DNA of 64,000 bases, taken from Liolophura sinensis (Eukaryota; Mollusca; Polyplacophora; Chitonida; Chitonidae). Positions 200-61,600 of this stretch are shown one piece after another (the stretch's first letter is position 1; every line of letters starts with the position of its first letter). Location: positions 19,409,606 to 19,473,605 of the forward strand of contig NC_088305.1 in assembly GCF_032854445.1 (NCBI RefSeq). Direction: 5' to 3'. A program made the translations under genes and the position numbers. Below the pieces are notes generated by a model that saw only the letters and a program-made list of their open reading frames with translations, was not told where the DNA came from and did not search any database.

Positions 200-354
200 A
201 CGATAACTTGTTGGTTAATTTCTGCATTCTGCCTTTGGATTACCAGAGATTTGTGCCTTTAATAACTTGATTCTACATTATACTCAGGCACTGTGTCCAA
301 AGTACCAGAGATTTCTGCCTACCATAACACGTTTTGCTCCTACATTCTACCCAG
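200..354 (+). repeat. Tandem duplication covering a TLK 3' splice site
   Basis: The block taccagagattt...ttctacattatactcag (about 241-287) is repeated as taccagagattt...ctacattctacccag (303-354). The second copy is the real acceptor of the exon starting at 355. A third, weaker copy seems present at about 199-240. The period is about 62-67 bp, so a decoy acceptor ends at 287. Confidence 0.7.
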
Positions 355-3300
355 GTACTTACCCCCAGAGTGTTTTGTAGTAGGAAAAGCTCCACCTAAA
401 ATATCTTCCAAGGTGGATGTCTGGTCTGTAGGAGTTATCTTTTATCAGTGCTTATATGGCAAGAAGGTGAGTGCAGAACAGGGCTGGATTTATTATTTAT
501 TTCAAAGTACAGAATTGATGTTGTTTGTAATTTGTGGACATACCAAAGACTTCAAGATTACTTTTGTTGACTTTTAAATTAACCAACAAAATTTAACTGT
601 CTGAAGAAGGTCAGAATGTATGAAATGCAGAGTGAAGCAGACAAGGTTTTTATGCACCCTTTTATCCTTTTGTTTTTTCTCCAACAGCCTTTTGGCCACA
701 ATCTGTCTCAAGCTGCTATTCTAGAAGAAAACACAATTCTTAAAGCCACCGAGGTAGAGTTTCCGCCGCGGCCAGTCGTCACTAATGAGGCAAAGGTAAG
801 GTGGATGTCAAAAGAAACGTATGTGATCTGCAGAAATGTGATTTGTTCGACTAACAGGAAAGTATAGCCTAATAAACAAATACAGAAGACTTGGCATTGA
901 TCTCTCCAAATATATATCGAATTATTTTATCGGTTTTGCAGTGCTGATAAAATGCTCACAGCATATGTATGAATGAAGGCAGCCATAGTCCAGTAATGTA
1001 TGTGCAACCCCGTTTATGTCAGTGGGAGTTGATTTCATTGGATTCATGTGATTCCATATATGGTCAGGCTATTGCATCATAAAGATATAAACATGGCAAC
1101 TTACTGAGGCCTGCTTGGGTCTTGCAGCAACCTATGGATGGTCATGGGTTTCTCCCGCGGCTCTGCCTGGTTTTCTCCCACCATAATACTGGCTGCCATG
1201 GTATAAGTGAAATATTCTTGAGAACGGCATAAAAAAGCATTCAAATAAGTAGAGCCCACTTGAATATTGAAATGTATTAGTAGAAAAAAGTGCAGAACGA
1301 AAAAATTTGTAAAAAAATGTATGTTTAAACATGCCTTTGCTGTAAAATGACTGAAATACTGCTGAAGTGGCATTAGGCCATAATTATACTGTTATTGTTT
1401 CATCATAGAAATAATCCATTTACGATTTTTCTGCACTTACAGCAATTTATCCGACGTTGTCTCCAGTATAAGAAGGAATTGAGGCCTGATGTTCCTCATT
1501 TGTCACAGGAAGATTACCTCAAACCTGCCCAATTGAAATCCAAGTAAGTGAGTGTCTGCCTCTGTCCTCCAACTGCCCAGTTGATATCCAAGTAAGTTCA
1601 GTGCCTGTGCCTGTCCACCAATCTGCCCAGTTGATATCCAAGTAAGTTGTATGTCTGTGTCTGTCCACCAACCTGCCCAGTTGATATCCAGGTAAGTTTA
1701 TATATCTGTCTGTCCACCAACCTGCCCAGTTGATGTCCAAGTAAGTTGTATGTCAGTGTCTCTCCACCATCCTGCCCAGTGGATAGCCAAGTAAGTTGTA
1801 TGTCTGTGTCTGTCCACCAACCTGCCCAGTTGATATCCAAGTAAGTTATGTCAGTGTCTGTCCACCAACCTGCCCAGTTGATATCCAAGTAAGTTGTATA
1901 TCTGTGTCTGTCCACCAACCTGCCCAGTTGATATCCAAGTAAGTTGTATGTCAGTGTCTGTCCACCAACCTGCCCAGTTGATGTCCAAGTAAGTTGTATG
2001 TCTGTGTCTGTCCACCAACCTGCCCAGTTGATATCCAAGTAAGTTGTATGTCAGTGTCTGTCCACCAACCTTCCCAGTTGATAGTCAAGTAAGTTGTATG
2101 TCAGTGTCTGTCCACCAACTGCCCAGTTGATAGCCAAGTAAGTTGTATGTCAGTGTCTGTCCACCAACCTGCCCAATTGAAATCCAAGTAAGTGAGTGTC
2201 TGCCTCTGTCCTCCAACTGCCCAGTTGATGTCCAAGTGAGTTGTATGTCAGTGTCTGTCCACCAACCTGCCCAGTTGATGTCCAAGTAAGTTGTATGTCT
2301 GTGTCTGTCCACCAACCTGCCCAGTTGATGTCTGTGTCTGTTCTTAATCCTGCTCAATTCATATCCATCTGAGTTTGTGTTTGTGTCTGTCCTCAAACCT
2401 GCCAAATTAGATCCAGGTAAGTTTGTGGATTACTCAAAAATATGTGCACCTTTGCCTCCATCCATAAACCTGCCCAGCAAGTAAGTTTATGGATGTTTGT
2501 CTATCTGTTATATGTCTGTCTCTGTATATCTCTATCAGTAGAAATTTTGTCTTTGTTTTCAGTAAAATGTTGGTGTTGTGTAAATGTATTATCTTAGTGG
2601 AGGCGAGAGGCCAACCTAGTTCTCTCCTTTTTATCATTTCTGTGTCATGTAATGCATACCCGTAATTGGAAATAACTTTTTATTGACAATCTCGACACTG
2701 TAGAGAAGTTTATAAGGAAATAGAGACAGTCCAAAAAGTAGAGGTATATTAAAGCTAAAGTGACAAGGATTTGTCTGATTTTCTAGGCCAGTCCCCATCA
2801 TGTACTTCTAGTAAGTATCAGTGGTGTGAGGGTCAGCAATATCAACACATGAGGGTAAGTTATGAAAAAAAAAAAAAAAAGATGTGTTAGAGGCCAGACA
2901 GAGTCTTCATTGACAAGGTTGAAAAGGAAACAAAACACAATGATACTGATACTTACAGAAGGTACAGGGCTGGGACTACTGTTTAACATTAGAAACATAG
3001 GGGATTGAGTTTTGAGTTCCTAATCCTTTGTCACTAAAGATTAAAAGTAGTACCAATGGATCCGGTGACTTGTCAAAAGTGTTAGGCAACTTTTACTGAT
3101 CATCTGTCTAGCCAAGTCCCAGAAGCACAAATGACTTGTTTTGTTTTGGGGGAATTCTTAACATCACAGATGTTCAGTACCTTAGTTTTCTGCACTGTTC
3201 ATCTGCTCTCAAGAACTTTTTTCATATCCCCGTCTGAAAAATAATTGCCTAGGATTTCTTAAAGGATACACGGTACAAGGACATTTGTTAACGTTAGCAG

Positions 3301-58600: not shown

Positions 58601-61600
58601 AACCAGTTAGTGTTTCCTAGCTAGGTTGCTGCCATAATGTGACTGTTAACCAGTTAGTGTTTCCTAGCTAGGTTGCTGCCATAATGTGACTGTTAACCAG
58701 TTAGTGTTTCCTAGCTAGGTTGCTGCCATAATGTGAGTGTTAACCAGTTAGTGTTTCCTAGCTAGGTTGCTGCCATAATGTGATACATATGCATGTGTTC
58801 TCACATTTGCTAGTGTAACATGAAACATCGTATACAGGACGATTCTTCAGTCTGTTTGCATGTTTGCAAGGTGTTTATTCAAGCATATTCTGAAGGCATT
58901 AGTCTGTGTAGATTGGTAAAATTATACTTTTTGAGAAGCCCCGAAATCAACCAACCCAACTATTGTAGTTTTGTCATATATTGCACTGAAAGCTGCTCTG
59001 TCATATGCGAAAAGGTTGATGAATTAGGGTATATCAGTTGAATGTACCAGTATTCTATTTTGGTTGTATATGTCATGATAAAAATTATAATTTTTTGTCT
59101 TCTCCTTGTAATTGTCAGATTCTTCTTCTTGTAATTGTCAGATGCTTCTCCTTGTAATTGTCAGATTCTTCTCCTTGAAATTGTCAGATGCTTCTCCTTG
59201 TAATTGTCAGATTCTTCTCCTTGTAATTGTCAGATGCTTCTCCTTGTAATTGTCAAATGCTTCTCCTTGTAATTGTCGGATACTTCTCCTTGTAATTGTC
59301 AGATTCTTCTCCTTGTAATTGTCAGATTCTTCTCCTTGAAATTGTCAGATGCTTCTCCTTGTAATTGTCAGATTCTTCTCCTTGTAATTGTCAGATTCTT
59401 CTCCTTGTAATTGTCAGATGCTTCTCCTTGTAATTGTCAAATGCTTCTCCTTGTAATTGTCGGATACTTCTCCTTGTAATTGTCGGATACTTCTCCTTGT
59501 AATTGTCAGATACTTCTCCTTGTAATTGTCAGATGCTTCTCCTTGTAATTGTCGGATACTTCTTGTAATTGGTATCCCAGGTTTAATAATTTTATCAAAT
59601 GAACACATTAAACATGACTGTATAATAGCACTTTAAACGGTCATTGTAATATTGGACCACTGTTGATATTTATGTACACATGTCTACACAGTCATCTGAA
59701 TATGACTGACAACCAGTTGTTATATGCTAATGTGATGACCTCACTGGTAAACTCTTTGCAAAATGAGATTTTCTTTGCAGATTACAAAGGGACCAATCTT
59801 GATTATAACAGAAGAATTGTAGAGGACAGTGATATTGCTGAAACTTTGGTCAAGGTAACATATAAATCTTCCTTTTTAACTGCATTATCAGTAGATTGTC
59901 AGTACATTATCAATACATTGTCAGTACATTATCAGTTCTTTGTCAATACATTATCAGTACATTGTCAATACATTATCAGTACGTTGTCAATACATCGTCA
60001 GTACATTATTAATACATTATCAGTACGTTGTCAATACATTATCAATACATTGTCAGTACATTATCAATACATTATCAGTATATTATCAATATATTATCAG
60101 TACATTGTCAGTACATTATCAGTACATTATCAATACATTATCAGTACATTATCAGTTCATTATCAATACATTATTAGTACATTGTCAGTACATTATCAGT
60201 ATATTATGAGTACATTATCAATATATATCAGTACATTGGCGTGTGAAATTAGACTTGAGTATTTCTTTCAATGTTGTTAGAGGATAGTTACCAACTTTGC
60301 CTTCGACACTGCTTCATTTCATTTTATCCAAAACCATTCTTTTTTTTAAATCAGATTATCATTTTCCCATTTTTCATTACTTGAACAAGATAAATCCTAT
60401 AATTAAAACCATTGTGGAGTGCAATATTACTGACACACCTCCTACAATCTAAATGTCAAATCCAACATAAAAATTCTTGAGTATGACAATTAAAACAGTA
60501 ATCAGATCAGAGATACAAGACATAATTTGTCTACAAGCAAAAGTTTATTTGTGGGCCCTTAAAATTGTTAATTATGCCTCTTTCACCCCTGTTTTAGTCC
60601 CTTGCTCTTTTGGAGAATGATACAGATGTGAAGATTCAGGTGTTGAACGTACTGCAGAACTTCTCAAAAGACTCAGGTAATGTTCTCATTAGGATGTCTG
60701 CTTCATTGATGAGAAATATGAAGTACAGATTCATTCCTGACCTTGTACAGGGAATGTTTGGATTCCCCAGCTCTCACTGCTTGTGTGACCTACTGGCAAC
60801 TATAAACAGTCGATAATGCTCGTGTACATGTGGCTGTTTGGGAGGTTGTTGAAGACCGCTTGGTTTCCACCAATGTGTTGTGCTTAGCTTAGTCACATGT
60901 GGGCAAGTTCTCAAGTAACTTGCCAAAAGGTCTGTGGTTTTACCCTGATTGAGGATTGACCCTGGATCTACCACTCCCGAATCCTGGATCCTGGATATAC
61001 CAACTGTGCTATCCAGGCCGGTCACATGATTAGATTACAGTATGTTAATGATAAATATTGGTGATTTTTGTTTATGCTCACAGAAAAGAATTGTAAAGAG
61101 ATGCTGAAATGTTAGTGATGAACATTTCTTATTTTTGTTTGTGCTTACAGAAAAGAACTGTAATGAGATGTTGAATGGCGGGGCTGCCCAGAGGATCTGC
61201 AGCCGTCTGATGGACACCTCTGACCCTAGCGGTCAACTCTTGTTCCGCTCAGTGGACGTCCTGTGGAACCTGCTGACCCATGGAGACAGGGACACTGTAG
61301 CTCAGCAGCTGAACAACCTCGACTGTATCAGGTGAGATCACTTTAAACCTTTTTTTTTTAATGTATTTACATTACAAGGCTCAAACACTCAACAACTGAT
61401 TGATTGATTGATTGATTGATAGATTAATTGAGTTTAACATTGTGATAAATAATATTTTACTGAGATGACTGTGGTGTAGTTTATAAGTGGAGGAAACTAG
61501 AGTGTGCAAAGTAAACCACCGACCTTCACCAAGAACCTGACAAACCTTCTGACCTAAATCCGTATCCAAGGATACATATTCGAATACACTTCCTTATGCT

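Follow-up and report, generated by a model that had tools for sequence, protein, structure and literature searches.

Tandem duplications at splice junctions of a chiton locus

The stretch of DNA analyzed here, referred to below as the window, spans 64,000 nucleotides of the chiton Liolophura sinensis (C11:19409606-19473605, within a 609-Mb assembly of 632 contigs) and contains four genes in which several exon-intron borders lie inside tandem duplications. Passages of the assembly's description state that this Hong Kong chiton genome was built from PacBio high-fidelity (HiFi) reads with a mean length of 8.3 kb and first named Liolophura japonica (PMC11068029), and a later report gives the corrected species name, L. 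sinensis (PMC12441733). Eight consecutive molluscan haemocyanin domains (PF14830) in the assembly identify it as that of a mollusc. Rebuilding the gene models yielded 23 exons belonging to the 3' end of a tousled-like kinase gene (TLK), to CFAP69, and to two small paralogous genes, paralogues A and B (window positions 28614-33132 and 47695-51760, respectively). The joined translation of TLK matched human TLK2 (5o0y, E=1.6e-49) and that of CFAP69 matched PF21049 (E=6.4e-141); for paralogues A and B, no Pfam family scored above the cut-off, the best for A being a weak match to DUF1499 (E=0.007). The start of paralogue A resembles a signal peptide, as judged by eye. About 41 splice junctions are visible in these models (39 that were tested plus two whose intron was not delimited), near the figure of about 45 given in an earlier, sequence-only reading of the same window.

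That reading had proposed that the splice site itself is duplicated at seven borders, which we located at positions 354/355, 1543/1544, 32340/32341, 28704/28705, 48953/48954, 57790/57791, and 61150/61151. At each tested junction, 70 nt across the border were aligned to as much as 500 nt of the adjoining intron and compared with 60 shuffles, in a test that demands similarity on both sides of the border. For six of the 39 junctions the true sequence outscored each of its shuffles, which held for none of the other 33; scores for the six, with the best shuffle in brackets, were 63 (15) at 57790, 54 (18) at 48953, 40 (13) at 61150, 39 (16) at 1543, 24 (15) at 32340, and 23 (13) at 28704. Thus, six of the seven proposed duplications straddle a border, three at donors and three at acceptors, and the arrays are real and built from units that differ from one another, all as the sequence-only reading had held. 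The seventh, at the TLK acceptor, is not confirmed as straddling: a duplicated intron end is present at 238..375 on the forward strand (local score 24, against a best of 13 in 300 shuffles), but beyond the AG its alignment takes in only some five bases of exon, of which four match. The straddle score in the junction test is 0, and Tandem Repeats Finder (TRF) at score 40 does not report the duplication.

Two of the arrays extend a donor site into a long row of copies. On the forward strand, the TLK exon at 1443..1543, which lies in the rebuilt model and its TLK2 match, runs into an array of about 16 copies of 50 bp (1517..2332; 1522-2332 by TRF), each unit consisting of the last 27 nt of the exon, the donor, and the start of the intron. 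The GT is kept in 15/15 aligned decoys, as we call the further copies of the splice site. This array also has higher-order structure: a 77-nt stretch, made up of the exon-anchored copy and the start of the next, occurs again 644 bp downstream with 97% identity, a pattern suggestive of exchange between the edge of the array and copies further in. On the reverse strand, exon 4 of paralogue B (48954..49032) adjoins 17 copies of a 53-bp unit (48078..48984, from TRF and copy alignment) that comprises the last 31 nt of the exon, the donor, and 22 nt of intron; here, all 16 decoys keep CAG/GTAAGC, the slash marking the border. Related copies dispersed through the genome, as a transposon or introner would leave, were looked for with the TLK and paralogue B units; in this search, which skipped very common words, both matched solely at their own loci.

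The two cases in paralogue A, also on the reverse strand, are more eroded or interrupted. A degenerate array of 20-22-bp units, detected by TRF in two segments (32013-32158 and 32304-32344) and by the junction test, occupies 32013..32344 and includes the donor of exon 2 (32341..32449). At exon 5 (28614..28704), TRF and the junction test find a 43-bp array derived from the acceptor region at 28888..28990, which has no direct contact with the exon; between them lies a short interspersed nuclear element (SINE) that we read from the sequence at 28723..28880, with 14-bp target-site duplications at 28709-28722 and 28881-28894. Because the SINE and its target-site duplications sit inside the exon-proximal copy, the 43-bp array must predate the insertion. 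Both cases in CFAP69, on the forward strand and found by TRF and the junction test, have two copies only: a 100-bp duplication at 57624..57822 takes in an acceptor and 32 nt of the exon at 57791..57889 (within the PF21049 match), and a 67-bp duplication at 61042..61175 takes in another acceptor and 25 nt of the exon at 61151..61331. The window arrays each sit at one end of their intron and, as had been claimed, add length there.

Other repeats in the window lie away from these junctions. Intron 1 of CFAP69 holds a Tc1/mariner-like element (53340-54890; DDE_3, E=7.5e-10) whose flanks carry matching ends by eye. By TRF, an array of about 13 copies of 90 bp (4786-5938) lies a short way past the end of the TLK coding sequence and may belong to the 3' untranslated region, and a degenerate minisatellite of about 117 units of 19 bp (40234-42396) falls outside the four gene models.

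Occurrence and rate in dynein heavy-chain genes

For a sample outside the window, we used 15 dynein heavy-chain genes, chosen before any of their sequence was viewed by their match to PF12774 in order of E-value (the first 12 distinct genes, then the next three, added after the first analysis), with 18 kb taken for each. Exons were derived from paralogue similarity and splice-site scores. Five predicted exons that fell wholly within arrays, four of them from D4 and the fifth from D9, were removed before counting, and the cleaned set comprised 405 exons with 780 junctions. Straddling duplications (score of at least 22) were found at 12/760 junctions, or 1.6%, whereas one shuffle of each junction gave 0/760 with a maximum score of 17. 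Six of the 12 are donors and six are acceptors. Splice-junction duplication is therefore real and extends beyond the window, but the share of about one in six junctions that the sequence-only reading gave for the window does not hold as a general rate (12/760 vs 6/39 in the window, Fisher P=0.0001). Cases became more frequent with intron length, from 0/228 in introns below 250 bp through 3/318 at 250-500 bp and 4/158 at 500-1000 bp to 5/56 at 1000 bp or more, a trend to be read with the caveat that arrays themselves make introns longer.

Individual dynein arrays can be large. A D4 acceptor is repeated in 22 copies of a 66-bp unit, with 19/21 decoys intact, and a D4 donor in ten copies of an 83-bp unit; at a D9 acceptor, about 41 bp of a 53-bp unit are exon. 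One acceptor counted among the 12, at position 16531 of D8, belongs to a weakly supported exon that aligned to no paralogue, and is likewise included in the placement counts given below. In D6 (locus L013, 6981-7605), a 31-bp donor array also repeats at a higher order, with a period of about 156 bp and splice motifs that alternate between GT and GC forms.

Intron age and decoy splice sites

Paralogues A and B allow introns with and without arrays to be compared. Exon 4 of A (30451-30529) and exon 4 of B have the same length, end, codon, and phase, and the array is present only in B, the A donor showing no duplicate in the junction test. Conversely, exons 2 and 5 of A carry arrays and B shares those introns without them; exon 2 of B (51652-51760), for example, ends at the place corresponding to A exon 2, with an unduplicated donor. 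Since each of these introns is present without an array in the other paralogue, the introns concerned in the A/B pair predate the arrays. In the dynein genes, the exact exon border is common to at least one paralogue in 4/12 cases and a border lies within 3 nt in three more.

Decoys largely keep the splice dinucleotides. GT is retained in 68/74 aligned copies from seven donor arrays, a tally that excludes two paralogue A copies without GT listed by looser copy finding, and AG is retained in 28/36 copies from three acceptor arrays. Use of the nearest decoy would shift the reading frame or add a stop codon at 15/17 junctions examined. Because most nearest decoys would break the frame, the spliceosome would have to choose the exon-proximal copy.

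Origin of the arrays

We consider it probable that these arrays are of the kind described in amphioxus as "mirages", arising from ordinary minisatellite birth in introns and tolerated as splicing keeps the exon-proximal copy. An array would be founded by tandem duplication of a stretch of about 20-100 bp that by chance includes an exon-intron border, in a genome whose introns appear to undergo tandem duplication frequently, and some of the arrays so founded would then be amplified, both steps plausibly proceeding by slippage or unequal exchange. The outermost copy, beside the exon, would retain the exon and its splice site, while the other copies would turn into intron bearing decoy sites; with the spliceosome picking the exon-proximal copy, and so the shortest exon and longest intron, the arrays would be nearly neutral. 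Exon definition predicts just this choice of the exon-proximal copy.

The placement of the dynein arrays is consistent with such chance founding. Nine of 33 straddle a border, compared with 5.9 expected if founding units fell at random (P=0.12), so that the excess over random placement from which the sequence-only reading argued is not demonstrated in an independent sample. Because 9/33 is near the random expectation, tolerance combined with chance suffices. The difference shrinks further when D4 is left out (6/27 vs 4.7) or D4 and D8 together (4/20 vs 3.5), and arrays with fewer than 3.5 copies, the closest to founding events, straddle at 2/15 vs 2.7 expected. Computed before the five exons were removed, a gene-by-gene null gave 5.4 expected (P=0.07), and other TRF cut-offs, with all copies considered, gave P from 0.018 to 0.18, the cut-offs having been set after the arrays had been seen. 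A bias of arrays toward splice junctions is thus not proven.

Two earlier counts were rejected. First-pass dynein models, which were hexamer-based and covered 12 genes, had 11/29 arrays straddling vs 4.95 expected (P=0.004) and 10/16 of the many-copy arrays vs 2.8; these were discarded because, when the models were checked against paralogues, exon ends proved wrong at several arrays. Of the 11 arrays, two plainly fail to straddle and another was in doubt; none of these three straddles in the rebuilt 15-gene models. A per-base comparison (11/529 junctions vs 50/1101 random intron points) resembles depletion and was left unused, as long arrays inflate its control.

Several observations nonetheless weigh against the explanation by chance and tolerance, most of them in favor of a mutational or repair process that prefers exon-intron borders, for instance through transcription-linked R-loops or replication stalling, and that founds or amplifies arrays there. 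Counting genic arrays of the window with a period of at least 20 and a TRF score of at least 80, and placing the founding unit randomly in the same genes as the null, 4/10 straddle by strict TRF overlap vs 0.73 expected (P=0.003), or 5/10 if the SINE-split case is added (P=0.0003); the window is, however, the discovery sample, biased upwards, and having suggested the hypothesis it is no test of it. Dynein arrays of at least 3.5 copies straddle at 7/18 vs 3.2 expected (P=0.025), under a split by copy number devised after the data were seen, and 16/33 dynein arrays straddle or lie within 30 nt of a border vs 10.6 expected (P=0.03). Across the genome, short-period triples of the donor word AGGTAAGT occur in 550 windows compared with 389 for the reversed word (single sites, 26,582 vs 29,090), but these windows overlap and a handful of large arrays dominates them (the first hundred entries fall in 15 loci), leaving the count too clumped to decide. 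Also counted against our explanation are the 5/12 dynein cases (one without an alignment) in which no paralogue with the same border was seen. Given the dynein placement as a whole, a border-directed process is not needed, and we regard it as possible but unlikely, although the copy-number split leaves room for preferential amplification at borders. Along the first 3 Mb of C1, the search with AGGTAAGT also turned up further tandem rows of this word, at C1:1904043-1905286 (period of about 126 bp) and C1:2084435-2084867 (about 61 bp).

Other accounts fare less well against the same data. Selection might retain duplicated splice sites as helpful, through U1 recruitment, exon definition, recursive splicing, or regulated alternative use, and in line with this the splice motif is less diverged than the whole unit in 6/7 donor arrays (0.015 vs 0.115 in TLK, 0.000 vs 0.065 in paralogue B, and 0.012 vs 0.079 at the D4 donor). 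Taken together, however, the seven arrays fall short of significance (mean rank 0.29, combined P=0.12) and D3 is reversed, AG has been lost from 6/12 decoys of the D9 acceptor, and most decoys would break the frame if used, all of which makes selection a highly unlikely cause. The arrays might also be traces left when introns were gained through tandem duplication of exon sequence bearing AGGT, the Rogers model, which has been proposed for amphioxus mirages (PMC3087553). This would fit both the AG/GT found inside several donor units and the dynein cases in which no paralogue border was seen; yet the A/B pair shares all three introns concerned without arrays, dynein paralogues have some of the exact borders in common, and the window arrays are confined to one intron end, so this reading is hard to credit. 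Least credible of all is an assembly artefact, for which we found no supporting evidence: the mean HiFi read exceeds every array measured, most copies have diverged from one another, one array contains a SINE with target-site duplications, and the duplications occur in several unrelated genes.

A further and frankly speculative reading is that, in this lineage, arrays holding a working splice junction multiply or last better than arrays elsewhere in introns, whether by transcription- or splicing-linked copy gain at exon ends or because rows of intact donors are useful in U1 binding or recursive splicing, which would make mirages a widely used path by which introns lengthen in some animals; we think this improbable. 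On a more modest scale, mirages provide a means of lengthening introns from the ends. A splice site repeated up to 22 times, with one copy to be chosen, amounts to a natural experiment on positional choice by the spliceosome, and such rows are a hazard for gene prediction, as our initial dynein exon models, misled at several arrays, illustrate.

Comparison with known systems

Passages of a review describe intron gain by tandem genomic duplication, the Rogers model (PMC3443670), in which, as in the chiton, sequence containing AG/GT is tandemly duplicated; the A/B pair differs in having the intron also in repeat-free form, and in carrying the repeat at one intron end. In abalone, intron 3 of a TSSK1-like gene contains a length-polymorphic array of 27-bp minisatellite units according to passages of PMC6905558, likewise an intronic minisatellite in a mollusc gene, though the passages that deal with it mention no splice junction in the unit. 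None of the papers listed by literature searches in the open part of PubMed Central described splice-junction minisatellites from a mollusc.

The closest counterparts are the amphioxus mirages, described in Adh3, globins, TnC, and PGBD5, where reverse-transcription polymerase chain reaction suggests regular splicing and copy number varies between the two haplotypes of the globin case (PMC3087553, PMC3902484). In both animals, tandem units of about 10-160 bp include the splice site together with exon bases, donors as well as acceptors are affected, and AG or GT is kept in many copies. Judged by the sequence of a single haplotype, the chiton arrays have the anatomy by which mirages are defined: this is a structure of known kind, here in a mollusc and at 1.6% of junctions in the sampled genes. 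The chiton arrays suggest that mirages are no peculiarity of lancelets, and they differ from the amphioxus cases in coming from a mollusc rather than a cephalochordate and in being accompanied by an out-of-sample rate (12/760) and a null expectation for their placement.

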